The notes under the pieces were generated by a model. That model searched no databases and was not told the origin of the DNA. It saw only the letters and a list, made by a program, of their open reading frames with translations. Positions 6,136-64,000 of a DNA stretch of 64,000 nucleotides are shown here, piece by piece. The first letter of the stretch is position 1, and every line of letters begins with the position of its first letter. The stretch lies in assembly GCA_907163375.1 (NCBI GenBank), contig CAJQUW010004464.1, positions 62,001-126,000 on the forward strand, in the 5' to 3' direction. The position numbers and the translations under genes were made by a program. The DNA is from Prostheceraeus crozeri (lineage: Eukaryota > Platyhelminthes > Polycladida > Euryleptidae).

Positions 6136-8441
6136 CCCTTTAGGGTTTAGTGGTACATTTTTATACCACCAACAATGTATTCTTTTGTGATCGTGTTTCG
6201 GCTCTTGTTTTCCGCTGTCATTTACCATATCTAACAACTTGGTAGAAAATGCATTGAAAAAAAGCTGTGACGAGTTTGTTTTACAAAATCAATTATTTTC
6301 TAGTGGATACAGACGATGAAATTGGACATTTTTTTCATTATCGACTTTTTGGGAATTGCATCGGGTAAGTGTTCATGTCATCTGTCTCTTTCATGTTCTA
6401 GTAACTTTTCTACCACAATGTTGGTAAGATGATAACCTGAAAAAACATAATTGGTCAAGACATGAGCTGATAATTTGTTTGTTTGTGCAAAATTGAAATA
6501 GAACACGTAGGTGGTGCAAATATATACCACTAAGCCTTAGAGGAAAATTATGCAAAATAATGAAATATTCACGAATGCTAGTAGCCTACATGTTCTGAAA
6601 AATGTATTTCTAGGTACTTGACATACATCCAAAAAGCCTAGATACACTTTTGCGTCTATGACGCTCCACCAATGTAGTTTTTGGCAAAATTTTCTCTTCA
6701 GGGACTCGACCACACACTATCAGCATCGTTATTCCGAAGTTGTTCCACTAGGCTATGTCCGTTTCTGTGGTGCTTATGCCTCAATTATAGTTTATACCGT
6801 AGCCGTAGATGTTTGCTTTCTGTGACTTAAGTAATACATTGAATCTTCTAAATAATGTACAGAATCAGAAAATGATTACAAGTAGCTGCTGCTTCAAATT
6901 TGACTTCTTATTTCAGGTGAGCCTGCCCATGTTGATGAAGAGGATATGTCTTTCTTTGAAGCGGACTATGACGCCGGATTGGACGAAACCGTCATATCGA
7001 CTTCACAAGCACCTGAATCTGATGAACGACCTACTACTTCAACTATGACAGGACCCAGAGAAACCCTCTTCTGTAACTCATGAAATACTAAAGCTAGTCT
7101 TCAACACAATCCATCGTTCTCAAAAACAATTGAATATGATATTATTCGGTCTGACATCCTTGAGCTGAACTGCCCATATGAAGTATTTCTCAAAGTTTCT
7201 GGTTTGAATCAACTTATTGGTGACATACTAATTCCCCAGTCACACGAATACGCGAAACAAAATGGGAATGTTTTTTCTGTTGAAGAAGAAGAAATGAAGG
7301 CCTTCGTGGGTATTTGTGTTCTAATGGGCCTGCATGTTCTTCCTGAAATGAGGGATTATTGGTCCACTGACAAAGCAGTTGGTGTTCCATTTGTGAATAA
7401 TATAATGACCCTGGCAAGATTCGAAGCAATTAGAAAGAATCTGCACTTCTCTAACAATTGGGACGCCACCCCTAATGACCGTGCCTACAAGATTCAGGCG
7501 GTTTTAGATCATTTCAACATGCACATCTCTGTGTACATCATGTGTACATCTCTGATCAAAGGAAAAAATGCTATGAAATCGACCACCGAAGCCGGTACAA
7601 ATACTACCTCAGACTATTCTTCGATCAAATTGACACCGCCATTTCAAATGCCTACATAGTGTACAAGCAGATGAAAGACGCTTCCTGTAGCAATTCCTGT
7701 AGCTTCCCTTCCATGTCATCAAAGGACTTTCGCTTGAAGATTGTTCATGGTCTTGTAGGACAATTCTCATCAAGATCCAAACCGAGGTTCGAATCGGCAA
7801 AGTCGAAGAAAAGAAAGTTGCTCCAACCATCATCCAATGGTATCCCTCACCTTCCAATTGTCAAAAGCAATAGAGCACGATGTACGTTCTGTTCTTCAAA
7901 CGAAAACGACTGCCGAAGTAATGTATTCTGCAGGATCTGTGACGTTGCTCTATGTCTGAATAGTCAGAGGAACTGCTACTCATGTTATCATGAATAGTTT
8001 CATTCCCCTATTGCTTGATAGGCCTAAATTTGGACACAACACACGAATGATAATGTATATTGCTAATCATTATCAATCATCGATTGATCATTTTTTTTAG
8101 TTGTATGTGAAAAACAGGCATTTCTCCAACAAGTGTAGTGCTCTGAATTACGCAATAACATGAGGGGTTTGGTATATTGCACAATATCAAAATACAATTT
8201 TAACCATGCCTACGTAGGTACTTGCATTAAAGAGCGCAACAACAATTGCAAAAAAACTATCTGCCGAGAGCGAAAATTTCACTAGGGTATAGTGGTACAA
8301 AAATGTACCACCCCCAAAAATAATATTCCCGATATATATTTTTCAAAATACTTGAGATATGTCTTAATGGGACCCTATAACAACTATCCATGAGAAGAAA
8401 ATAAGATTCCTCAGTAAAATGGAGATCTGTGCCCTAAAGGG
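6136..8441 (+). mobile_element. piggyBac-type transposon with TTAA target duplication, internally deleted
   Basis: TTAA at 6132-6135 is followed by the inverted end CCCTTTAGGG (6136-6145). The other end is CCCTAAAGGG (8432-8441) followed by TTAA (8442-8445). TTAA duplication with CCC-starting ends is diagnostic of piggyBac. Subterminal palindromes of the GTGGTACA...TGTACCAC kind lie near 6149-6171 and 8291-8312, with a related box near 6514-6536. The 2306-bp element encloses a broken transposase (6917-7997). Its boundaries are intact, so it could have been mobilised in trans. Confidence 0.85.
6917..7997 (+). pseudogene. piggyBac transposase, degraded (DDE_Tnp_1_7)
   Basis: A probable exon starts after a TTTCAG acceptor at 6916, with an acidic N-terminal segment (EPAHVDEEDMSFFEADYD). 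A single in-frame TGA at 7081 interrupts it. The same frame then continues as the piggyBac N-terminal DDE_Tnp_1_7 region (ELNCPYEVF, VFSVEEEEMKAFVGICVLMG, LHFSNNWD). It is lost near 7530. A second frame (7563-7997) supplies the C-terminal part: RSRYKYYLRLFFDQIDTAI, SSKDFRLKIVHGLVGQ, and a cysteine-rich finger (C..C, C..C, C...C). The central segment carrying the first catalytic aspartates is absent, so this is an internal deletion near the repeated TGTACATC at about 7531-7550. The protein cannot be an active transposase. Confidence 0.8.
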
Positions 8442-33104: not shown

Positions 33105-33202
33105 ATTAGCATGCTTTGTTCTACACAATTAAAATATACATGTAATAGTTGAGCATTTAGCATCCATTGTTACTATTGTTTGTTTTCTTTTCAGATACAA
33201 AT

Positions 33203-33283
33203 CATGGAGATGAGATGTCCGTTGTCAGTCATGGAGATGAGATGTCCGTTGTCAGTCATGGAGATGAGATGCCTACAGTTGGC
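33203..33283 (+). repeat. 27-bp coding tandem repeat (HGDEMSVVS units)
   Basis: Three in-frame units begin at 33203, 33230 and 33257. The first two are identical at the protein level (HGDEMSVVS) and the third diverges (HGDEMPTVG). Confidence 0.85.
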
Positions 33284-35543
33284 AAAAGAAAAAGGAAGTA
33301 TGAGCAAAGAAGACCTGACCTGTGGAAACGAAATCGAACCAAGCGTCTAAGAGAAATGGGAGAACCATACAACAACAAACCGGCTCGATCCATGGGAGGG
33401 CCTTGTACATCGAATGGTTGCAAAACCTCATCAAGAGCTTGCTGTAATATCACAGAAGAACAAAGAATGAAAATATTCGACAATGTTTGGGGTAAGATGA
33501 AGACATTTCGAGAAAGGAAAATATACATCAAAAGCCTCATCAAGTCAGCAGAACCAAAACGCCGTACATCAAGCAGTGATTCTCGCAGATCTAGGAGCTT
33601 TTCGTACAATTTGGAAGTGGACGAAAATTCTTATCATGTCTGCGAGAGCCTGTTTTGTTCAACAGTTGGAATTCCAAAAAAGAACTATAATGCATTGGAT
33701 GTCAGAGGAGGCTAATGAATCTCTCATATCACCAGAATCGACTAGTTCTGCTCGAACAGTCGCAAATAGGATCACTGAGGAAGCCACCGCTAACCTAGAG
33801 ACATTCTTGAATAGTATAACTACAATGCCATCGCATTATTGCAGAGCAATATATCAGGACCAGAAATTTCTTGAATCTGGGAAGAGAATACCAAACGAGT
33901 GCACAATCTCTAAACCAAAAGCCAGTGGGTTACAGTACGTTTCTCAAGAAGTTCCACTCCATGGGGTTCAGAGTCTTTACTCCGAGAAAGGACCAATGCA
34001 ATGAATGCATAAAATATAAAATTGGCACTCTATCATCAGAGGATCACTCCAAGCATTTGACTTTAAAGGATGCTGCCCAAGCCGAGAAGTCAAATGACAA
34101 AAATGAAGCAAAAAACAATCCGAAAGTTTCAGTATGGACTATGGACTTGCAGGCAGTCCTGTTATGTCCCAAAACACAAGCAATCTGCATGTATTATAAG
34201 ACAGATGCATTACTTCACATTATAATGTTTAAAAACCAAAGAAGGACATTGTTGTCCTTGGACCGAGGTTGATGGCGATCTATCCTCTGAAGTGTTTGCC
34301 TACCTTCAGTATCAACACTTCAAGGATTATCTCAATCGTCATGACAGTGTTGAGAAACTAATTATTTGGTCCGACGGTTGTGCTTATCAAAACCGCAACG
34401 CAACTGTCAGCAATGCCTACCTACACTTGGCTAAAGAAAAAAACGTAACAATAATACAGAAGTATCTCATCAGCGGGCATAGTCAAATGGAGGCCGATTC
34501 TATGCACAGCACAATTGAAAGAAGAATTAGGTGCGAAATCTATTCACCAAGTGACTACAAGATGGCGATGAAATTGGCCCGCCGAAACCCTGAACCATAC
34601 GTTGTTCATGATTTGAACCATTCCTATTTTAAAAAGGGGTTTCAAAACCTATATGTGAAGTCAATAAGACCCGGAAAGAATATCGGAGACGCAAAAGTTA
34701 ATGAACTATCAGCATTGAAGTACACAATGACAGGCGAAATGTACTTCAAATTAAAAGGAGAAGAGGAGTGGTCACTTTTACCACAAAGAATAAATCGTAC
34801 ATCGACCCTTCTCTTGAACCAAATGTTCCCGACGCATCTGGAAATATCGGAGCGGAAGTATCAAGATCTTCAGGTACTCAAATCAGTGATCCCAAGTGAA
34901 AATCATGCATTTTATGATAGCCTTCCTCACTCTTGATAACTTTTGCAATATTTTGAATAGTTTTTTGTTTACATTCTAACTAACACAAGTAAAGATGAAA
35001 AATTAATCGTTTTCATTGAGCTCCTTTTTAGATTATTCTCGATTAATGGGTGAAATGGAGTAAGATGGTTTCAATATTTACTTCCTGATGTGTTTGAACT
35101 GAAAGTAACAGCCATGTATACAAATCTTTCATTATAATAATTAAATTTTCCCCATAAAATTAGGCCCACAATTAGATTATCTTTTCAAGTCAATACTTAT
35201 AGGCCTAAAGTATGTAATTATCATATAACACACAAAATACTTATCTAATTTTGTAAGATAATATGAAAATATAAATGAAACAAATCATCGATCTGTATTC
35301 TAATTTTGTGCAAAAATGGCCTATCTGCAGAAAATTAATGCAAAATTGGCCTATCTGCAAAAACAACCTATTGTCGAACCAGTATAGCGAAAATGAAGTG
35401 ATCCCCTGTTATATATACTAATCTTGATATAACACACGAAAAAACTATATTGTTTACCTGGAAAATAAAAAATAGGAAAGTTTATTTCAATTTTCTCGAA
35501 AGTGGAAAATTGCAGATAGGCCACTTTTGCATAAGGCTGTCGA

Positions 35544-37007: not shown

Positions 37008-38668
37008 CCAATCATCCCCTCCTCAAATTTGAGCAGATCGACTCAAACATATTGAGCAGGATTATACCTCAATCGGGGCACTCCTTTATTCTCCCGATCC
37101 GATCGTCTCGGCCAGTCCGGAGATTCTGGTGGATGATAGGTGGTAGGAGATTCTTCCACGTACCGCCGCATTCTCCTGGCATTCCACAGGTTGCCGTCCG
37201 AGAGTTCGTAATTCCATCGACCCCGAACTTAGATGACTGTCAGCGGTTCGCTCCATGGCCTCCGTCCTTTCGGAGTGTGAGGTCGCCTCACTCGCACTTT
37301 ATCTCCGACTTGATAAAGTGTCTTACCATGACCATTCGCAGACTCTCCCGATTCTCCTCTTCTCGTGCGAAAACGAACAATCTGAAAAGGAAGTCTATGT
37401 TGTCGACCGAGGAACTTCTCAGCCGGACTCTTCTCATCAGCTTCTTGACTGGTACTGCGAAATTGAGCCAATAATTGATTCAGATTTTCTTCCCATGATA
37501 GATGACTATTCTCGAACGTTTGAACGCCATGTTTGAGATACCTATTGAACGATTCCACGAATGCATTCTGTTGAGGTGTATAGACAGGAGTGAATTCTTG
37601 AAAAATGTCTCTATCCTGGAGGAAATTCTTCAATTCTTCGCTCTTGAATTGGGGACCGTTGTCTGTAATTATTTTCGAAGGATTCCCATATCTTGCAAAA
37701 ATTTGACTGAGCCATGATTTGATCTTCCTTGTCGTAATATCCGTTGTACATAAGATTTCAGGGAATCGAGAGTAGTTATCTATGATCACCACCATATGTT
37801 TCATATGACTTGGAGCATTTGAAAATGGTCCCGTGATATCCATAGATACTTCTTCCCATGCTGTCTCTGACACTCTCAGACTCATGTGGGGCATTTGAAG
37901 TTTTGGCGTTGACTTCGCTGAATCATTGCAAGGTAGACATTGTTTTACGAATCGTTCAGACTCCTTGTCCAAACCTGGCCACCAATAGAGCTCCCTCAAT
38001 TTCCGCTTAAACCTCACTATTCATGGATGTCCTTGATGAGCCTTTTTCAGGAGATCTCTGCGCAATGATTGAGGAACAAGAATTCCGTTTTTCTCGCCAC
38101 GAATAATATAACCATTTTCTATTGCCAATTCATGCCGTAATTTACATAATTGCTGTAGATCTTGGCTGCTGTCTTTGAGAGAATTTGGCCAACCGTTTGT
38201 TATGAATTTACAAACTTGCTGCAGAAGCGGATCAGACGACGTCGCATCTTTGAATATTTTGGCAGAAAAACCCTCTTCATTTATTTTCCGGAGTCTTTGC
38301 AATTGTTCTTCCTTATCTGTTTCAGTTGAACCATCCAAAAGTCGAGAAATTGCGTCAGGAACTATATTATTGACACCGCTTTGGTATTGAATTGTGAAGT
38401 CGAACTCTGATAACCGGTCCATCCATCTTCCAAACTTCGCTGATTTTCTTCTGTTATGAGCATTTTGCAATATTCCTGACAGAGGCTGGTGATCTGAACG
38501 TAATATAAATGGTCGACCCAAAAGATATTTTTCAAAATATTCACAGAAATACATTGCTGCAAAAGCTTCACGTTCATTGACAGCCCATCCACGTTCTCGA
38601 GGACTAAATGTATGATGTGCGAAAGCAATTGGAATGTCATGGATTTCATGGTAGTGATTTTCAGCCTT
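37008..38668 (-). pseudogene. Ty3/Gypsy pol fragment: RNase H and integrase
   Basis: From about 38668 downward the frame reads an RNase H domain (SPRERGWAVNEREAFAAMYF, SDHQPLSGIL, NNIVPDAISRLL). The integrase zinc-binding region follows (H..H at KKAHQGH, then QCLPC). A single in-frame TGA at 38018-38020 sits inside the zinc-binding region. The integrase core then has D60 (SMDITGPF), D119 (ITDNGPQF) and E155 (NAFVESFNR), giving D,D(35)E counted from the Met at 38017. A 1-base shift near 37228 precedes the C-terminal NYELSDGNLWNARRMRRYVE segment. Protease, most of RT and gag are missing. It integrates cDNA in intact relatives; this copy is dead. Confidence 0.85.
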
Positions 38669-40042
38669 CGGAAAAGTTCTCCTGGACGTGATGGCCTACC
38701 TACATGGCTCTACAAAGACTTCTGTGATCCTCTGGTCCCCATCATCCATCATATCTGTACATTGAGTGTCAACAGTGGCATTTTCCCCGCTGCTGTCAAG
38801 CGGGCGTATGTAGTGCTTACACCGAAATGCAAAAAGCCACAATTTACTGATTACCGACCATCTCTATTTTGCCTGTTCTGGCCAAAATACTTGAGAAAAT
38901 CATACTGAAGAACTGGTTTCATTCCATCTTGCCAAAGCTTTCAAGTGATCAATTTGCATTCACACCAAGACATGGACAGGGGACTGTTTGTGCACTAACC
39001 TATATGGTCAATCGTATCTTGTCTCATTTGGATTCACCTGGTGCTATCAGACTTCTTATGGTGGATTTCACGAAAGCGTTCGACAAAATACCACATAACG
39101 TCATCATAAACTCGTTGTATTCACTTGCCGCTCCTATTGAACTCATTAAATGGATTCAATCATACTTTGATTCTAGAGTACAATGTGTGAAAACAAATGG
39201 ACAACTTTCTTCTTGGTACCCAGCTATTAGTGGAGTGCCCCAGGGAGGTGTCTTACCAACTCTTCTGTTCGCCATAGCTGTTAACGATTATCATGCTCAA
39301 CAACCAAATAGCACTCTCCTAAAATTCGCGGATGACGAACGGCATGCCAGCGAAGATCTTAGTTCTGAACTTGACCATCTGACTTATTGGTCTGAATTTC
39401 ATGGATTCAAACTTAACAACAATAAGACGAAAGTGATGAACATACAAACGAAACGGTCCATTGTTTTGGCTACATTGGAAGTTACAGCATCTAATTGTGA
39501 AATTGAAGCAGTAAAGACGGCAAAAATCTTGGGTATTACATTTGATGATCAGCTAACGTGGCACCATCACATTGAGAATGTCTTGAGCCGTGCCAGGAAA
39601 AGACTGTACATGCTCTACTCTCTTAAACGGATTAACGCTCCTCAGCGCATCATGTGGCTGGTATACTGTACACTCATACGATCGGTAGCCAGCTACAGCT
39701 TTCCTGCATGGTGTAGCGTTAACAAAAAAACTTGTTTCCGGCAGTTAACCCAATTTGAAGAACGTGTTTTCCGATTTTTGTGACTTGAATATGGCATGAC
39801 GCCTATCAAGTAAAGCGATGTGCCCTCAGCATCCCTTGGATGTGATATTTGACAAATCATCATCTAGGTCTTCTACTCGCAAAGGATTCCTTCACGGGAA
39901 AGTGATGGCCAAAACCAAGCGGTTTCAGTCGTCTTTCATTAGATTTGCTTAACTTTCTTTCATGTTTTATCTTCTGTAATGTTGTACATGCCACTTCCGA
40001 ATCTTGTTTTGAAGTGTAATAAAGCCATATTATTATTATTAT
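38669..40042 (+). pseudogene. 5'-truncated CR1/Jockey-like LINE, reverse transcriptase
   Basis: The fragment opens inside the RT fingers (SPGRDGLPTWLYKDF). One frameshift near 38870 separates this from the main ORF (38869-39783), which has LSSDQFAFTPRHGQG, motif A MVDFTKAFDKIPH, SGVPQGGVLPTLLFA, motif C KFADD, and KTAKILGITFDDQLTW. The thumb/C-terminal RSVASYSFPAWCS precedes a stop at 39781. The 3' UTR ends in (ATT)n at about 40025-40042. Endonuclease and ORF1 are absent. RT residues look preserved, so the copy is comparatively young. It abuts the Gypsy fragment at about 38668. Confidence 0.8.
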
Positions 40043-40590
40043 TACGCTTTCACTCACTGTTTGGAAGTATTTGTCCTTGTGAGTCAAACATTTTCCACAA
40101 TAAAGTCTATCAAATCTAGAGCGCCTTAGCCTCAGTTGACGCGAAGAAACTGACTTACAAAGTGCAGTAACTACTACTAGTAACTAGGAATTTACTTGTT
40201 TTACTTGCGTCTAATAGGCGTAGATAGTGAAAAAGTTGAATAATGTGAACTGCAGTCCGCGGCCTTATTTCCCTGCCAAATGCTGCCCGCGCCCGTATAA
40301 AGTTTGGACAATCCTGATAGAGGTTCAAGTTGCTTTCAAGCAACGACCGCAATCGGTAATGAATTCTCCATATCGACCACAAAGACATATTTTACTGTGC
40401 CGACTTGCGCATTATGGCATTTTCAGTGAAATTGCTCTAAATATTCTTGAGGAATTCTGAATGGAGTTCCCTTGTCGCGTGTTATAAATTTAGAAGACCT
40501 AAAGGGCGCATCGAGTAATCTTGCTAGTTGCTACATTTTCTGATGCGTCGCAAGTCACACTGAGTTGATGATTGAAGATGTCTTGATACA
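40043..40590. other. Non-coding stretch
   Basis: Nothing recognised between the LINE tail and the hairpin. Confidence 0.3.
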
Positions 40591-40715
40591 GATAGTATTG
40601 GACTACATTTTGCCAATAGCAATAGTAATTGATCTGACTAGAATGATGTCAAATACTAATTAATCTAGTCAGATCAATTACTATTGCTCTTGGTAAAATG
40701 TAGTCCAATACTATC
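40591..40715. repeat. Near-perfect 52-bp hairpin
   Basis: The arms 40591-40642 and 40664-40715 match inverted at 50 of 52 positions around a 21-base loop. Each arm runs GATAGTATTGGACTACATTT to GATCTGACTAGA. It could be a foldback transposon or a small-RNA precursor. Confidence 0.85.
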
Positions 40716-40797
40716 AGTCGCATATTTCTATTCCTCCTTTTCCCTATTGAAATTTGTTAACATAGTTTTTACTTTTTACTAGATTTCTTGTCTACTC

Positions 40798-41661
40798 CAC
40801 GGTGCGTCAAAAATCGATATTGCCAAAAAAATTCTCCACTCGCGATTTCTCTTTTTCTGAATACCTATATGCCAACTGTATCTGAAAATCAAAATCCAAA
40901 AATCTTTTACAGGCGTCTTTGCAAATGGGACCACTTTTTTCAAAATGGCGGCCAAATACTTAAAATTGTTAAGTAATGATAGTTTTTCAGTCTCTAATTG
41001 ATACATTCATGCACCCAAATCTAGCAAAAAATGACTCCCTATATTATTCTTGATTTTTTGAGATCATCTGTTTAGTATTGAAAGCCATATTACCTCATGT
41101 ACAGGGTGTTCCATTATGAAAAATAGAAAAATAAATAATCGAAAATTGATATTTGGCTATCCTTGTATTATTCGGCTTTCATGCACCTAAATCAAATAAG
41201 AATGGATCTCTATATTTTTTCTAAATTTCTAAGACCATCTGATTGTCCATTTAAAGCCATTTCGGTACTTCTACAGGGTGTTCCAGAGTGGATAAAAATA
41301 AAAAGAAGTATTCGTAAATTGCTATTTCATTTACGAAATATGTGCTGTTTGACACACTTCAAATTCAATTTGTCATTCACTTTCTTCATAAGAAAACAAA
41401 CTTGTTCTATAGATGAGAACCATTATATGTAGAGATCGCTCGAAGAATTCGAGACGGGAATTCGGGATGTTCATAAGATTTCACTTTATAGCGGTTCCAT
41501 GTCTGTGTGAAATCATGATGGGCGGCTTCGGAAGATTGCTCGCTCCACGGTCCCAGACCCCGCTGTTTCATTTCACAAAATTCAGGAATATGGTGTATAA
41601 CGGCATGAATCTTAGGCGTGATATTGATGCCTAGATCACTGAAAGCTATCTTGAACTGTTC
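40798..41661 (+). repeat. Left inverted arm of the RAG1-like transposon
   Basis: It is the inverted near-copy of 43850-44714. It contains two 108-bp subterminal repeats (41006-41113 and 41178-41285), each ending ACAGGGTGTTCCA, and most of the transposase last exon. Confidence 0.85.
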
Positions 41662-43618
41662 GATGTGATCCTTGTAGGACGGATCCAGCTTATCCCCGTA
41701 ACAAGCCACAGCAACCTGAAATAAAAGTTCAAGCTACATAGCACTTGTAGAATATGCTTTTTCCAGTATATATTTATTCACTACGAAGTCTGTATGGGAC
41801 ACAACTCACACACGATCTATGAAACAAACATGCGTTCAGTGCAGTATATAATATCGTGATTTTTACATGTAAGCTTATGTTAACATTCAATAGATCAGCT
41901 TACCTTGTTGAACGCTCGAAAAGCTGTGACATATTTCACAACTTTCAAAGGGGTATAGATTGCAACAAATCAATTTTGTTTAATAAAGGCCTAGAGGAAT
42001 TTCCAGTAAAACTTCCTCCGTGTAAATGCTCTTGCTGAACATTGCAAAGCCGCAGCCATTTGGCTGAGTCTTGCCACTCGGAACACATGGCCTTGTAGAT
42101 TGTTCCCACTGGTCCCGTTAGAAGGTGTAATTCTGGCGGCGGAATCAACTCAATCACTCTCTTGCTCTTGTTTTCGTGGGAAACAATCGAGGGATGTATG
42201 GTATTGTGATGTAGTTTGGCACGTATCTTCTGTCCACCACCGCCGTGCCAATCCCAGAAATCCTTTTCTAGAGTTTGGAATGTTCGAGGTAATCCTTTAG
42301 ATTGTAAATTTGAGCTTGGAGCAGTGCACCAACAACAAGGATAGGATGATCCGTGCGGCATGATGCCAATGAGAATATTACATAACTTCAGATCTGAAGC
42401 GATAAAGAATTCCGATTGTAGCATATGAAGGTTCATGGAAATCCACAGTTTTCGAATATTAGCGTAATTTTCTTGTACCATTGGGGCAATTCCTATTATA
42501 AAGAGACGTTTGACACCAGATTCCTTGAATGAGCTTGAGCAGTGGAGTGACGAATCATTGAGCTGGAAAATACTCAAGCACACCTTAATAAAACCGCCGC
42601 CGCCGTCTATTCACAATTTGATCAAGGTTTCTTCATCGTAACCTCTCTTGGATGTAACATATGTAATGAAACCGTCGACATCTTTGCAGACAATACTGTG
42701 ACGTGGTGTTCTTTCCGTCACAACATCTCTGTCTATTCTGACAAAGTCAATCAATTTGATTTCAAAGAATTAATCCAGTTCGTGGTTGCTTTCATATAGT
42801 TCCTGTTTTAAACCACTTTGAATAGAAATCGCCGATGATGACCGAAGATGTTGGGTCAGTTTAAGTGTACTTCTATCACTGAGGTTAAGGTCCACACGGA
42901 TCCTCTTCAAGTGCGTGGTTCCAAGATCCTTGCCTGAATCAATCGAGGGCGAGACGGCGAGAGTGACTGGATGTCCACCTCCAACTCGTGCCAATTTTAT
43001 TGCGTTCTCCTTTGATTCAGGCGATGAATCGATCTTTTGTAATATCACTTTTGAAGCAAATTGTTCCTCTTGTTTGGACGAAGAAGCCAGTGAGCTTAAA
43101 TTTTCCAATCGCGATAACTGATTGCATGAATGAGGCTTTCCTCGAGAAAGAATAGATAAACATGCAGAACACAATTTCAAGCACTTTCGTTCAATCGAGG
43201 AATTAGAGGAGTCACATCTGGGTCTTCCCACAAAATTCTTGATTCCATTCATGTTCGACGGATGAGAATTGTGTCGTGGAAAATGCCTGGCAGTCTTACA
43301 TATCAAACATTCACACACGTGATTCGACGATGATCTTGTGCCGCTGTAAGACAATGCAATTTTTGAATAATCAAACACAACTATTTCCTTTTGAAAGTTT
43401 TCATTCTTGTAATTCTGTAGCAAAAGACGGCATGTTCCACAAATTGCAGTTGGTAGCCTTTCGTCATGTCGGTTAAAGCCATTTATACAAAATCGTTCGA
43501 TGAGTTCGAAGTGGGTGTCGTTCAATTGACGAATGTCCTTAGCCTTCTCCATACAAATGATACAAATAACAGCTCTATATTCGGCGTGACTGCGGCGATG
43601 GTTTGGCATGACGAACAC
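41407..43618 (-). pseudogene. RAG1-like transposase: RAG1 N-terminus-like zinc region plus RAG1/Transib-like core
   Basis: The start is M at 43618. Residues 19-63 (CIIC ... AICGTC) and CECLICKTARH (102-112) parallel the zinc-binding N-terminal region of vertebrate RAG1 (C..C, then C..C, then CDICNTAR). GRPR (131-134) and a second cysteine cluster (C146, C150, C153, H163, C165) follow. In the same frame, past stops at about 42770 and 42610, comes IDGGGGFIKVCLS (first Asp), then IASDLKLCNILIG (candidate second Asp), CCWC, PPPELHLLTGPVGTIYKAM and HGGSFTGN. After a 1-base shift near 41956 the exon ends AACAAG|GTAAGC (41894). The last exon (41715-41407, after TTTATTTCAG) has ITPKIHAVIHHIPEFC and GPWSEQSSEAAHHDF, matching the RAG1 segment with the catalytic glutamate. 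No RAG2-like kelch ORF was seen. Broken by two stops and one frameshift. Confidence 0.7.
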
Positions 43619-43849
43619 AATAGCGATGCAAGTTGGGAACGCAGACTTTATTGCTTCGTTTCAGCACGAGATTCGCAATGATTCAGACAGCAAGCATTTT
43701 TGAAATTTCAAACTATGACCTTGAAGTTTGTCAACAATACAGTGTCTTGAAAGTCGTTCAATTCAATCTATAGATATCTATAGATAACCTACACACCTTG
43801 CAAAGTGCTTCATTAGAGAGCAGTGAATGACAAATTGAATTTGAAGGCC

Positions 43850-44714
43850 GTCGAACAGTTCAAGATAGCTTTCAGTGATCTAGGCATCAATATCACGCCT
43901 AAGATTCATGCCGTTATACACCATATTCCTGAATTTTGTGAAATGAAACAGCGGGGTCTGGGACCGTGGAGCGAGCAATCTTCCGAAGCCGCCCATCATG
44001 ATTTCACACAGACATGGAACCGCTATAAAGTGAAATCTTATGAACATCCCGAATTCCCGTCTCGAATTCTTCGAGCGATCTCTACATATAATGGTTCTCA
44101 TCTATAGAACAAGTTTGTTTTCTTATGAAGAAAGTGAATGACAAATTGAATTTGAAGTGTGTCAAACAGCACATATTTCGTAAATGAAATAGCAATTTAC
44201 GAATACTTCTTTTTATTTTTATCCACTCTGGAACACTCTGTAGAAGTACCGAAATGGCTTTAAATGGACAATCAGATGGTCTTAGAAATTTAGAAAAAAT
44301 ATAGAGATCCATTCTTATTTGATTTAGGTGCATGAAAGCCGAATAATACAAGGATAGCCAAATATCAATTTTCGATTATTTATTTTTCTATTTTTCATAA
44401 TGGAACACCCTGTACATGAGGTAATATGGCTTTCAATACTAAACAGATGATCTCAAAAAATCAAGAATAATATAGGGAGTCATTTTTTGCTAGATTTGGG
44501 TGCATGAATGTATCAATTAGAGACTGAAAACTATCATTACTTAACAATTTTAAGTATTTGGCCGCCATTTTGAAAAAGTGGTCCCATTTGCAAAGACGCC
44601 TGTAAAAGATTTTTGGATTTTGATTTTCAGATACAGTTGGCATATAGGTATTCAGAAAAGAGAAATCGCGAGTGGAGAATTTTTTTTGGCAATTTCTATT
44701 TTTGACGCACCGTG
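43850..44714 (-). repeat. Right inverted arm of the RAG1-like transposon, with duplicated last exon
   Basis: It carries on the plus strand a second copy of the exon encoding the catalytic-glutamate segment (ORF 43823-44107). Its inner edge is joined to GTGAATGACAAATTGAATTT (about 43825), a phrase that also occurs at 44135 within the same arm. Confidence 0.85.
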
Positions 44715-44718
44715 ACTC

Positions 44719-46059
44719 CCTTATTTCCTATGTTAATGTGAAATTTGAATTCATGATTTTTGCGTTTATGTTAAATTCCTTCTATCTGATGATGGTTGCC
44801 GAATAGCAACCGAAATTAATTACATCATAATTAAAGTAAAACATCACTAAAACCTTGGCTCTTCCTCAACAATTAAATATAATGAGTTATAGTTATCATT
44901 CATTCATGATATTCTCTTAGAATTTGACTTAATTCTAATTTATTTTGACCTCTAATCATTTGAACTTTATTGCTGACGTAAGAGGGAGATTGCCCCTTGA
45001 TTCATGAATGCGAGCATAACGACGCCCTCGTAGTTAGACGCTCTCCTGGTTAGCAGTTGAGTTCCCGATTTCATCAGTTAGCCGCTTTTACTTTCTTCAT
45101 GAATGGAAACTACGAATGAATGGTGTATGTATCGCTGTTGAGGATAGTATTCCATCCTCATTTTGTTAGTTGAGATTCAGACGTGAGTAACAATTTCTTT
45201 ATGTTAATAGCAAAAACAAATTCTAAGCCATTTATTTGGAAACTCGTGCAGGTGCCAACAAACGGAAAATTTGCCGTTGACTATTAATAATACTTGTAAC
45301 CGTAAATACTTAGTCAAGAAAGAGAACGTGGAAAGTCTAAGCAATTAATTGGAAAAAATATTATGCGGTAACTACGGAACTGATAACCACTCATATTTTT
45401 TGAATATCACACTTTTTGCAGTAAATCTAGCGTAAATTGTATTTCAATGTTAGTGGGGTTATCGAAGAAAACTCTTTGTTAACCTTTCGATGTATGAATT
45501 AAAAATACACGTTCGTTTACATACCGTAATCGTTTTGTCATTATATATTTTATCAGCTTTTACATTACCTAAGACTGAATCAATTTGTGGTTAGGAATAG
45601 AAGACACTTAGAATCAGGAAGTATAAAAGAATAAAATTTCCCTGAAATAACTCCCTGATTTGTCTTTCAATAGCCTCATTTTTATCAGCAAAATTGTTTG
45701 AGGTCATAACGTAGAAGAATAAGGTGATAATGCGTTTCGTAACCTGCTCAAACTTCATTCTTGTTGACTAACGCAAATATTTTCAATAGATGCGTCATTT
45801 CTTTCATGTATTTTTATGTGTTTCTTCGGAAATTGCGAGGTGAATCTCTGAAGTTGGAATGGAGAAAGATTATGTGAGTTTGATTAATTCGTGGAGATGT
45901 TTTTGTGTTTTGAAGTTAGAAATATCAACTGAATTTTGAATATGCCTTCTTGAGGTTGAAAGCAATGTCAACATAGAAGCTATTCTATATTGAATTCTGA
46001 TTACTCATTTTGCTAACGCGTAGCAATGTTATGATGCGATGCGCCTCAATATTTTCAAT
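44719..46059. other. Non-coding AT-rich stretch
   Basis: No gene or delimitable element was recognised. Confidence 0.3.
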
Positions 46060-59500: not shown

Positions 59501-62500
59501 GTGTGACATGTGTTATGAAAATAATCTATATGAATGAACATAAGTGTAATTGGTAACTGCCATTGGCCTATGTGATTGTTAATTTAAAGAAAAAGGACTT
59601 TGAAGGTGTAAGTTATTGATTAGCCTCAAAGTCCTTTTTCTTTCAATTGTACACAGGTGCCTCAATAGATGTATAATATGCAATGTACACTACACCATAA
59701 AAATAGCGTAGGACACCATAATTCCAGTCTTTGATAAACATTCGTGGTATCACTAACCTTGACAGAAAACATTTGCGGTATAACGTCAGTTCACTGCGCC
59801 CTCAGGATTGGTCAGACTGTTTGGTGCATATTCATTTTAGGATATACCTTACATACAACGTTTGTCGATTTACGTAGTTAAAATTTACGGTATGATAGGC
59901 CCCTAGTTCATTCTGAATGCCGAATAATGTACCTTATTAATGTGAGTTTTAGCACATTATCGCATTGAAATTGCGATAGTTCATGAATGAATTTGAGGTC
60001 ATAATAGAACTTTTGAACCGAAGCATTCGTTTCTCTTTTTTTCTTTTTGTATGCAACTCCCATTGCTTCGAATATCAACTCCTTAGTCAATATAACCTCT
60101 TGACCACGTAAATTCTACGCCTAAACCACTGTATAGACTTACTGTATAGATTCTCGACATGCGTAAAATCGATTTTCGACGTATTTATCTACGTATGTAA
60201 CTCTAACTACTTCAAATATCAACTCCTTGGTCAATAAAACCTCTTGCTGAAGCCAATTCAACGCCCCAATCCCATTTGGCTTATTCCAGCTCTCTAACTG
60301 TTGGTGAGACATTGACTTACTGTACAGATCCTCGACATGCGTGAAATTCGAATTTGCACGCATCTATATTTTAGTATGTAACTCCAACTGCTTCAAATAT
60401 CAAGTACTTTGTCAATATACCGGTAACCTCTTGCCGAAGCCAATTTAACGCCCCAATCCCATTTGGTTTATTCCAGCTCTCTAACTGTTGGTGAGACATT
60501 GACTTACTGTACAGATCCTCGACATGCGTGAAATTCGACTTTGGACGCATTTACCTCTTTGTATGTATGGTGAGAACTGTATGTACTGTTTCGAATATCA
60601 ACTCCTTTTTGGACAACCAAATTTGTTTTATTGGAGATAGCAAATATACCATTATATTCTTATTTTTCCAGGAGTTATTGGTTAGATGCAGATGGAGATA
60701 TTTGTTAAATGTAATCATTTTTGTCATAAATTCAAATTTTTAGGAATAATTCGTGAGATTCAACAAAGGAGTGCGGACAACTGTATATTTCAAGGTAATA
60801 TATAAATTAATCCCTCGAGACTTCGGCTCTCGGAATTTATCTACTTATCACCCTAAATATCCTTGAATATCTTATACATAACACATAAAAGATAACAGAT
60901 AAGTTATCCTAAAACATGACAGAAAAACTGTGTCCTAATTTCCATGCATTACGTACATAACAAACGGAAATTTTGAATATCACACTTTGATTCGCGAGAA
61001 AGCTATGCGTTAAAATAGATATTGTATGATATTTAAAAGCATTATTCTATAACAAAATCCAGTCTTCGGCAGTCGTTTGTTATGTTGATAATTCTTTCAA
61101 ATATCATACGATATCCTATACGTATAATTGCTAATTTTTTTTTATAATTTATCTCGATCAACAAACTATGCACTCGCCCTTTGGGCTCGTGCATAGACAT
61201 ATTGATCTCGAGAAATGCAAGAAAGATGGATATTTTGCACTAGTTGTGTAAATAACTATTAAAGAGATAGGAAAAATGAATATACCAGTTAAACAGACAT
61301 GGTTTAACCAGTGTAAACTTAACATCGATTTACAACATAATAAGTGATATCAAGAATGATAACCTGTGGTCGTAGACATCGTACACAAGTCAAGTATTTT
61401 ATTTTAGACATCGTACACAAGTCATGCATCAGGGACGACTCGAACAGATATAGGCGTTAGATCTAGTTTTAGTAGTCCCTGTCATGTATTATCTCTTTAT
61501 AATTTCAAAATGCAATGACATTCTATGCCAATAATTCAAATACCGATACACGTACAGTGTCCAACACATAGCTTCCTGTAATTGGCGAAATCTCACCTGC
61601 AAAGTTGTGGCTGCCAACTTTCGATATTTCGTACTGGTTATCAAAGATACATCCTCGACTTCAGCCAATAATCCAACCTTTCTGATGGCATCATGACCTC
61701 GAATAAAATTCCCCGCTTTATTTTCGAAGATATACTTTTTCGTCAGAGTTGTGAGCCATTGGATAACCGGAATAATTTCCTTTGGAAACAGTATCGGCAC
61801 GAACTTATTACACTTCCCACGAACGTAAACCAGCTCCAGTGACTCCAGGGTTTTTCTCTCTTCTTCGCTTAGTTTTTTCCACTCCTCGCGGGCATTTTCT
61901 TTCCATTTCTCACGATCATCCCAAGTTTTCTTCTCGAGTTTGGCAACCTCCGAGGAACGCCTTCTATTAAACAAAATCAAGAAAGCTAGGGTTACTTCCT
62001 TCAGAAGTCTGGCGTTTTCCGTCGTTTGTTCGGTTGATACGATTGTGTCAGTCATATATTCTTTCAACTTGGCTATATCAACCTTTTTCGGCAAAGTTTG
62101 TGGCATTCCTGACTGAGAGCACTTCATGTAAACATGGGCATTAGTCATAAGGGGCGTTATTTCGTAATGAAATAACTTAAAAAAAGCTTTCACCTCCCTG
62201 GCCTTTTCAAAATCTAACGTCCGGTAGGCCTCGTTCTGAATTTCTTCTGCAACTTGAGAAATGGTTTGTCCAAGTCGTTTAAGGGCAGATGGTCGCTCCA
62301 TTGATATATCCGTTTCATTGGATGACAATTTAATCTTGTAATTAAACATCTTGATGAAGGCATTTTTCATAAGTTTGAATTTTGCGGGCTGAATCAACTC
62401 CGTATATGAAATTTCCGGATTACCTGCGAAATCTCTGACGAATTTAAGAAAGTTACACAAGCTGCGCACCTTCTGAGAAATAGAAAAATACTTATTCATG

Positions 62501-63455
62501 CCCTTCTTTAAAATCATACTTGATATCAATTTCAACAAAGCGTTGTCATTTTTTGCTATCTCGGAAAGGGGATCTGTTTTCATTCTTTTGAAGAACATAT
62601 TTTGCTCCTCCGTGAATGACAAATCAGATAAATCGATCAATGAGACCCTTCGTACTTTCGTTTCCTTCCTTACTTCAATTGCCGGACATACATGTCTCCA
62701 CATTTCTGTTGACGAATAGTATCCTGCGCACTCTTTACACATCGCATAAGAATCCAAATTACGAGATATATCAATATTGTTTGCTGGTCTTTGTACAACT
62801 ATCAAGTGACCCCCATGCTTCAACACTTTTTGGTTGTTTATATGGTTTCCCTTGTTTCGTAACAACTGTGTCGATTTACGCTTACCAAGCGATCCTTTAA
62901 GAAAAGTGTTGATATGCTGTACCTCTTTTTCTCGGCTGTGCTGGCTGTTTAGGTGACGCAAAAAGCTTGTGCTAAGAACGAACTTTTGGCAATATGGACA
63001 GCAATCTTTTTTATCGAATTTCTGCCGTGGTTTATTATTACACCCTAAAACGACAATTGAACTTTTGTTTTCGACATCTTCAAAGCACTGAGTTCGATTA
63101 TCATTCAAGCTGCACTCAGTATCTGTTGAGTCTTCACAGGATGATATTGAATCCGAATCAAAGTCTGTTTCTGGTACGTAATCATCACAAGACTTCAGTG
63201 GTATAAGATCGTCTTTATCTTCATCGGAAGATCCACCTTCGACGTTCGTTTCCATTTCTCTTTGAAAGCTGAAACACTCGCCTTTAGACGCGTCTGCTGT
63301 TACCACATCATCGGTACATACATCTTTCCCTGAATCACCTGACTTATCGTACAACCGACCTGTGTATTCCACTGCATCTGAGCGCATCTGCATATCACGT
63401 TCATCATTATCTTGTTTACTCTTCCCTTTATTGTCAGACTTTGTTGATTTTTTGC
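56573..63455 (-). CDS. Crypton-like tyrosine recombinase-domain gene, five joined exons
   Basis: Exons on the minus strand are 63455-61597, 59491-59310, 58919-58885, 58267-58110 and 56635-56573, with stop TAA. Every junction has GT-AG sites and the phases fit (0, 2, 1, 0). A CCACAG acceptor at 63456 implies an upstream exon, though ATG 63489 in the same frame is an alternative start. Counting from that ATG: an acidic N-terminal part, a C2H2 finger (C164, C167, H179, H184), and a C..C/H.C cluster (251-268). The recombinase core has NRRRSSEVAKL (box I, R511, E514), STKYRKLAATTL (box II, R623) and, in exon 2, HLGHTLNVHERFYR with candidate nucleophile Y658. Exon 4 encodes a TRWTKDQTMYLKMKF...RTWKDVTDKV module resembling a SANT-like helix bundle. 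Box II has K where many enzymes have H. No internal stop exists, so it is probably a host or recently active gene. Confidence 0.75.
56636..58109 (-). other. Last intron of the recombinase gene
   Basis: AT-rich. It contains two degenerate copies of the repeat seen at 60060-60545 (near 56838 and 57022-57075, each with a TTACTGTATTAATTC- or TTAACGTATTGATTC-like block). It also has a GGGACCCCAGTGGAATTCC motif at about 57496, related to the motif at 4543. Confidence 0.45.
59586..59643. repeat. 18-bp perfect hairpin in recombinase intron
   Basis: AAAGAAAAAGGACTTTGA (59586-59603) pairs with TCAAAGTCCTTTTTCTTT (59626-59643) across a 22-base loop. Confidence 0.85.
60060..60545 (-). repeat. Tandem repeat of about 180 bp inside recombinase intron 1
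   Basis: Two good copies and one degenerate copy share CGCCCCAATCCCATTTGG, CAGCTCTCTAACTGTTGGTG, TTACTGTACAGATCCTCGAC and ATGCGTGAAATTCGA (period 177-187 bp). A further partial copy lies at the right edge of the window (63920-64000). On the minus strand each unit is open for about 60 codons and carries a strong CA|GTAAGTC donor-like site. Confidence 0.75.
60803..60842. repeat. Foldback with TTCG apex
   Basis: TAAATT..TCCCTCGAGA-CTTCGG-CTCTCGGAATTTA forms a short hairpin capped by a C(TTCG)G loop. Confidence 0.55.
61013..61121. repeat. Foldback of about 109 bp with TTCGG apex
   Basis: AAAATAGATATTGTATGATA (left) pairs imperfectly with TATCATACGATATCCTAT (right). Inner AATAACAAAAT-like and GTTTGTTAT segments pair around CAGTCTTCGGCAG. 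Confidence 0.55.
61152..61213. repeat. Foldback of about 62 bp
   Basis: TCTCGATCAACAAACTATGC ACTCGCCC pairs with GGGCTCGTGCATAG...TTGATCTCGAGA. Confidence 0.6.
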
Positions 63456-63489
63456 CTGTGGAAAAATGAAAACATTGTTTTTGACGCAT

Positions 63490-64000
63490 GAAAATACTTG
63501 TATATAATTATATATATAGTGGAGGAGGCCCTAACTCGAAGTGGAGTAAAACAGCCTCTACAATTTTTCGACATAGATATACATCAGAACTCAATAATAT
63601 TCGTGAAAGCACACTTGATGGGGAAGAGACAGAGTTTGCAATCAATATCAATAGTCTTGATATTAAAGGCTATTAATAGTTGTCGTTTCAGTACCGAAAA
63701 TAGTAAGTAAGTACAGAGTGATTCATATGTCGCTGTCTCTGTATTTAGTACTTCCGGCTTGTCTACATTTGCAGAATGATAAAAGTATTGAAAAAAGCAA
63801 ATTTACATAAAAATGAAAAACTTTTAATATACACATGTTTTTCAAGTGGTTGAAGGAGTAATTATATGTTGAAAATGAAAATGACGAAAATGTGAAAAAT
63901 GTGAACGCCCAAACCACATTTCGCTCAGTGCTCTCTAACTGCTGGTATGACATTGACCTACTGCATGGATTCAGGACATGTGTGAAAATCGACATTGGAA
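63490..64000. other. Region upstream of the recombinase exon, no exon identified
   Basis: No convincing upstream exon was found. The last 80 bases are a copy of the intronic repeat (CTCTCTAACTGCTGG and GACATTGACCTACTGCATGG), so this may be more intron with the true first exon outside the window. Confidence 0.4.

Follow-up and report, generated by a model that had tools for sequence, protein, structure and literature searches.

Does a transposon that joins a RAG1-like zinc region to a RAG1-like catalytic core in one protein mark the direct ancestry of the V(D)J recombinase, or does it belong to another lineage of cut-and-paste elements? The question is raised by an element located at positions 40798..44714 in a 64,000-nucleotide stretch of DNA from the polyclad flatworm Prostheceraeus crozeri (assembly GCA_907163375.1, contig CAJQUW010004464.1, positions 62,001 to 126,000 of the forward strand), hereafter the window. 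A sequence-only reading had described it as a RAG1-like transposon of direct interest for the origin of V(D)J recombination. The observation is real in that the element is a DNA transposon, encoding in a single protein a cysteine-rich N-terminus and a core that appears distantly homologous to RAG1. The conclusion was too strong: the 4-bp target duplication speaks against a RAG1-type or true Transib element, and the evidence does not bear out a direct RAG ancestor. We consider it very probable that the window copy is a broken, non-autonomous Chapaev element, a cut-and-paste DNA transposon belonging to the CACTA-Mirage-Chapaev/Transib (CMCT) clade.

The transposase gene lies on the minus strand, where all of the motifs quoted in the sequence-only reading were confirmed. 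The first part of the reading frame (42611..43609) starts with an ATG at 43609 and includes the cysteine-rich, Chapa-like N-terminal region (43127..43564), in which CIIC, CGTC and CECLIC are followed by VGRPR and CxxC...HSC; the quoted CIIC, CGTC and CECLICKTAR fall within 43660-42770. The first part of the catalytic core (41948..42610) holds the first catalytic Asp (IDGGGG), the second Asp (SDLKL), a C(2)C motif (CCWC) and an LH motif (ELHLL), and the quoted IDGGGGF, IASDLKLCN, PPPELHLLTG and HGGSFTGN were recovered here along with PCCWC. Beyond a predicted GT...AG intron at about 41716..41903, the last exon (41407..41715; 102 residues and a TAG stop) carries the H(4)H motif (HAVIHH), the catalytic Glu (SSEAAHHDF) and the quoted HHIPEF..GLGPWSEQSSE. 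The Asp-Asp-Glu (D-D-E) triad and the C(2)C, LH and H(4)H motifs are thereby all present in the window protein. There is one gene here, as had been read, but it is not intact: a single frame runs from the ATG to 41945 save for an in-frame TAA (42772-42770) and TGA (42613-42611), and a frameshift follows near 41945, just upstream of the intron. The window copy is broken as a gene because of these two stops and the frameshift, while some other copies in the genome are open across the first frame part.

The family was surveyed in the 2.05-Gb host assembly that contains the window. With the first core piece as the query, 3,741 candidates came up at first look; we scored 150, every one of which matched. 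Among these, 34 were 95-100% identical, some of them open for 588 amino acids across exons 1 and 2, one was 88% identical, and the remainder showed 47-73% identity with frames of up to 708 amino acids without a stop inside the match. From the scored matches we drew 30 near-identical loci, and eight diverse stretches were also fetched (individual loci are given L numbers below). Four relatives, L048, L050, L051 and L052, have a single open frame of 652-706 amino acids extending from the zinc region through the last-exon part. Searches beyond the host yielded chance matches only in viral contigs (two protein scans with the core pieces and one DNA pattern), genome contigs (one pattern) and phages (tblastn with the first core piece); the 15 pattern matches outside the host look like chance, and the best local tblastn match had an E value of 0.022.

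The element is 3917 bp long, with ends CACGGTGCGTC...GACGCACCGTG and termini CAC...GTG. The CACGGTGCGTC ends are inverted repeats, and with three mismatches allowed the window contains the 17-base end CACGGTGCGTCAAAAAT only twice, against 0.17 occurrences expected by chance; CACGGTGCGTC was not found in the literature searched. The termini are flanked by the target-site duplication ACTC (40794..40797 on the left and 44715..44718 on the right). For the survey of duplications, we used 28 copies, the window's own included, having dropped L030 and L040 because they did not align from the element's first base. As many as 13 of these copies share one insertion site with the duplication ACTC, which was counted once. 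Exact 4-bp duplications were found at seven distinct sites (ACTC, CAAT, CCCC, ACGT, CTAC, GCAT and AACA), and L034 has a 4-bp duplication with one mismatch. The far end was degenerate in L032 and was not found in L018, L044 and L045, and the two flanks of L023, L028 and L033 mirror each other.

The element sits in a high-copy repeat, the flank of which (e.g. 44715-45214) gave 804 first-look candidates; the 40 that were scored were 97-100% identical, and the ACTC insertion has multiplied along with this surrounding repeat. Eight of the 40 scored repeat copies, selected for having no known copy of the element next to them, were retrieved as empty sites. All eight carry a single ACTC, seven of them matching the joined flanks at all 76 bases and the eighth differing by two mismatches. 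From the exact duplications and the empty sites we therefore conclude that the element duplicates 4 bp.

These characters fit Chapaev, a group described by Kapitonov and Jurka in 2007 (cited in PMC4411706 and PMC4079192). According to PMC4079192, the C(2)C, LH and H(4)H motifs, CAC/GTG ends and target duplications of 3-4 bp are hallmarks of Chapaev, and the element shares the CAC...GTG ends, the 4-bp duplication and the D-D-E triad with all three motifs. The cysteine order of its N-terminal region also fits the RAG1-like Chapa zinc region reported for Chapaev (PMC4411706). The same source describes RING fingers after the Chapa domain, in two Chapaev subgroups only; none was found here, and no RING model was listed at E<=1 among nine relatives. 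A difference from Chapaev as described is that the terminal arms of the element, at 866 bp, include most of the last exon. Chapaev is counted in PMC4411706 as one of four clades in a wide 'Transib superfamily', and has been grouped with CACTA and Mirage by others (PMC4079192). The label Transib-like, as used in the sequence-only reading, is consequently right in this wide sense only, the 4-bp duplication setting the element apart from true Transib. In the likely mechanism, the CAC ends would be bound by the zinc region and the core of the transposase, cleavage at the ends would fall to an RNase H-like D-D-E centre supported by the C(2)C/H(4)H zinc ligands, and the integration step would produce the 4-bp duplication.

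Several observations weigh against this placement. The duplication in L042 is 5 bp (ATGCG), at one of nine distinct scorable sites. Searches of Pfam, NCBIfam and PHROGs gave no match above the cut-off, and no library names the family. Not every long-frame relative would make a sound enzyme: in L048 the catalytic Glu column is occupied by Lys, Ser replaces the first core Cys in L052, and no clear start was seen for the frame of L051. Finally, the placement was made by comparison with published descriptions of Chapaev. This comparison by description leaves room for a CMCT-clade lineage distinct from Chapaev, a new branch at the superfamily level; the related lineages ESTA, Plavaka and Lanisha are reported to share C(2)C/H(3-4)H motifs (PMC12730594). 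We regard such a branch as very unlikely, since the 4-bp duplications, CAC ends, LH motif and RAG1-N-like zinc region jointly fit Chapaev as printed (PMC4411706, PMC4079192).

To what extent is the core related to RAG1? In an alignment of nine copies, one of them from the window's subfamily, the first Asp (DGGG), the second Asp (DLKL), ELH and the second core Cys were invariant; four of the nine rows reach the last exon. We compared the window protein and nine copies (two of the window's subfamily) with the core of mouse RAG1, using 200 shuffles of each sequence. All ten outscored every one of their own shuffles (z 4.6-8.0), although the sequences are related to each other and so do not represent ten independent tests. 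The sole control, the gypsy integrase from the window, scored z 0.1 and was matched by 91 of 200 shuffles. The columns of RAG1 residues D708, C727, C730, H937, H942 and E962 fell on the motifs of the family in seven of the ten sequences. Some of the RAG1-matched columns have altered residues in L034 and L048, the first His is off by register in L051 and L052, and only the C-terminal half of L050 is in register; D600 of RAG1 was outside the local alignment in all ten.

Profile comparisons were less favourable. With hhalign, single core sequences matched RAG1 at P 0.025-0.035, which is weak, the nine-row alignment matched the RAG1 core at P 0.003, which we also count as weak, and the core-only alignment gave P 0.048, its score being exceeded by at least 5 of 200 shuffles. 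The Pfam RAG1 model was not listed for the window pieces at E<=10 or for nine relatives at E<=1, and neither phmmer nor profile searches of PDB (the latter at E<=10) listed RAG1 or Transib. In a calibration of the PDB profile search, RAG1 itself reached Transib at an E value of 0.0029 and a RAG1L chain at 5.9e-68. As RAG1 reaches Transib only at this value, the failure to list RAG1 or Transib is weak evidence. The profile matches to RAG1 and Transib that the sequence-only reading proposed as a check did not appear in Pfam or PDB, and those to RAG1 were weak in hhalign; the shuffle test supports a core collinear with RAG1. In our reading, the alignments point to a real but distant, collinear homology between the two cores.

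AlphaFold2 gave no usable models from single sequences, with mean predicted local distance difference test scores of 33 and 38.5. Pfam also gave weak matches to DUF1280, below the cut-off, before and across the first catalytic Asp in L049, L051 and L052 (E values of 0.0013 to 0.027); this orphan family, which matches weakly in four of nine family members, may be a relative. Matches of the last exon to Angiopoietin (E 0.03) were rejected as chance.

For the zinc region, the resemblance to the N-terminus of RAG1 lies in the order of the cysteines. Three CxxC pairs follow each other as in RAG1 (cysteines 110/113, 175/178 and 210/213 of the mouse protein). After trimming, the zinc piece from the window aligned in register with RAG1, and an equally good score was reached by 9-20 of 1000 free shuffles and by 38-97 of 1000 shuffles that kept the cysteines, depending on the setting. 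Across nine proteins, z values against free shuffles ranged from 0.8 to 5.6. The resemblance is weak: the window piece did not fall into register when first aligned locally, and 28 of 500 shuffles did equally well; all six RAG1 cysteines were in register in only four of nine proteins, the window's among them; with the cysteines fixed, only L050 and L046 reached 2 of 500 shuffles; hhalign returned P 0.32 with the window piece and P 0.43 with the nine-row alignment; and the nearest Pfam model for most members was zf-AD (E 0.03-0.35, below the cut-off). The region may accordingly be said to resemble the RAG1 N-terminus in cysteine order, with weak statistics. Its homology to RAG1 would rest on the published Chapa domain (PMC4411706) and not on the tests made here.

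With the core and zinc region in view, the alternative that the element is a RAGL or true Transib transposon holding both halves of RAG1, on a direct line to the V(D)J recombinase, can be weighed. The CAC ends, the CxxC order and the window core, collinear with RAG1 at the Asp, Cys-Cys, His-His and Glu positions listed above, are what Transib, RAGL/ProtoRAG and vertebrate RAG1 would share with it. These groups are set apart by their target duplications, printed as 5 bp for Transib and RAG-like transposons (PMC8355894, PMC7204232) against 4 bp here, and by the RAG1 and Transib matches missing from Pfam and PDB, whereas RAG1 finds both Transib and RAG1L. Nor was a RAG2-like partner seen: besides the transposase pieces, the element has only open frames of fewer than 100 amino acids, one of which is the mirrored exon described below (these short frames were not searched), and no RING model was listed. 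We therefore hold this alternative to be extremely unlikely. N-RAG-TP of Aplysia, which is described as composed of RAG1 N-terminal-like sequence (PMC8355894), differs by this description from the element, which also has a catalytic core.

The combination of a RAG1 N-terminus-like Chapa domain with a distantly Transib-related core in one Chapaev transposon was published in 2015 (PMC4411706). An undescribed link to V(D)J recombination is not supported, given this printed architecture, the 4-bp duplication and the unmatched Pfam RAG1 model, and the accepted picture of the origin of RAG1 is unchanged by the family. As Chapaev unites both RAG1-like parts in one protein, ideas on the origin of the RAG1 N-terminus can usefully be tested in a family this large and with long open frames.

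The part that may be new, and that a specialist might not expect, is the structure of the ends. The inverted ends of the element, CAC...GTG, are not short tips. The terminal inverted repeat on the 3' side of the gene (40798..41663, minus strand) and that on the 5' side (43851..44714, plus strand) form arms of 866 bp that are 99.2% identical to each other, 680 bp of them exact. The 3'-side arm holds most of the last exon. Since its boundary lies inside this exon, the opposite arm carries 85 of the 102 exon residues reversed, as an open frame (43851..44107, plus strand) that includes the catalytic Glu. Throughout this subfamily of the window element, the 3' end, most of the last exon included, recurs at the 5' end as an inverted duplicate. 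A literature search for precedents of exon-bearing arms found none, a broader one led to the Galileo and insertion-sequence parallels given below, and we do not claim the arrangement as unprinted.

The doubled exon is not private to the window copy, an explanation that we rejected, because, of the 30 host loci most similar to it (the window's own included), 28 have a 260-bp stretch of the arm in both orientations, at several unrelated sites. In the other two, L030 and L045, it was seen in one orientation only, within the part fetched. Outside the window's subfamily the doubling was not observed: seven other diverse loci each showed a single match to the last exon, in stretches shorter than 4 kb that perhaps did not reach the far end. 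The two exon copies of L017 are unlike, the mirrored one having 81% amino acid identity to the window exon and the other consisting of two shifted pieces with 96-100%.

We compared the arms within and between copies at 26 of the 30 loci, for which both arms were comparable over at least 240 bp. The two arms of the same copy differed by a mean of 1.00 substitutions (0 to 3), compared with 2.20 for the same arm in different copies (325 pairs). When each insertion site was represented by a single copy (11 copies), the means were 1.00 within copies and 3.20 between copies (55 pairs). A narrower sample of 18 chosen copies yielded 0.72 and 2.49; over all 30 loci the contrast is smaller, but it stays. 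Variants private to a copy or a group recur in both arm tips, for example in L031, L036, L039 and L043. We infer that the arms exchange sequence, the pattern being the one that arm-to-arm conversion predicts.

The copies at the ACTC site also differ in the orientation of the interior, the gene pointing in one direction in eight of them and in the opposite direction in five (L017, L025, L026, L027 and L029). For this comparison we surveyed base 18 of the arms in 24 of the 28 copies, omitting L018, L032, L044 and L045, which have no clean far end. At the ACTC site this base is A beside one flank in 14 of 15 arms and C beside the other in 13 of 15, irrespective of which way the interior points, and in the five inverted copies it follows the flank in 4/5 and 5/5 arms. 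At other sites it is C in 17 of 18 arms, allowing for a one-base insertion in L042. Element bases 2534-2669 are missing from all five inverted copies and present in seven of the eight uninverted ones; the remaining copy, L041, lacks them through a different, larger rearrangement. As these bases belong to the part coding for the zinc region, the inverted copies are not whole. A second insertion was rejected as an explanation of the inversion, since base 18 of the arm tips follows the flank and not the interior. Because of this and of the loss shared by all five copies, the most probable history is that a single exchange within the arms flipped the interior after insertion and that this orientation was then inherited as the repeat multiplied.

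An alternative is that errors in the assembly of inverted repeats made the inverted interior and perhaps the doubled exon as well. Collapsed or flipped inverted repeats are a classic fault of assemblies, and L023, L028 and L033 each have a left flank that is an inverted copy of the right one, through either palindromic rearrangement or an assembly fault. We nevertheless think errors of this type unlikely as the cause, given that 28 of 30 near-identical loci at several unrelated sites have the exon-bearing stretch in both orientations, that base 18 tracks the flank, and that the loss of 2534-2669 in all five inverted copies makes the orientation look inherited.

An inversion by recombination between the arms has parallels elsewhere. 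Inversion of the interior between the ends has been described for Wolbachia insertion sequences, in a source that also cites it for a Tc1/mariner element (PMC3004938). The element resembles ISWpi1 of that description in having its interior inverted by recombination between arms and differs from it in transposase family. It resembles Galileo in its long arms, the extension of which has been proposed to result from conversion (PMC3573991), but has a different transposase family; moreover, the longest Galileo arms are described from copies without a transposase reading frame. The exon-bearing arms offer a natural case for tracing conversion and inversion between transposon ends, copy by copy. It is conceivable, though in our view doubtful, that the doubled catalytic exon is a maintained arrangement that buffers the catalytic Glu against decay. 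With the arm boundary inside the last exon, recombination between the arms would invert the interior and leave the gene still joined to a complete last exon, and arm-to-arm conversion would keep both exon copies alike.

Several other features were observed in the window. An open frame of 672 amino acids at 61489-63507 (minus strand) had no Pfam match above the cut-off. Overlapping frames at 33161-34936 (plus strand) form an apparent mobile-element gene, with a weak match to DUF7869 below the cut-off in 34226-34936. Frames for a gypsy-like integrase/RNase H and a reverse transcriptase, identified by Pfam matches, are located at 37229-38695 (minus strand) and 38851-39783 (plus strand). A transposase fragment at 7084-7659 (plus strand) matched Pfam DDE_Tnp_1_7 (E 3e-23) and is presumably piggyBac-like. 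Beside the element, at 40588-40718, is a 131-bp hairpin with 60-nucleotide arms of 92% identity, resembling a miniature inverted-repeat transposable element.

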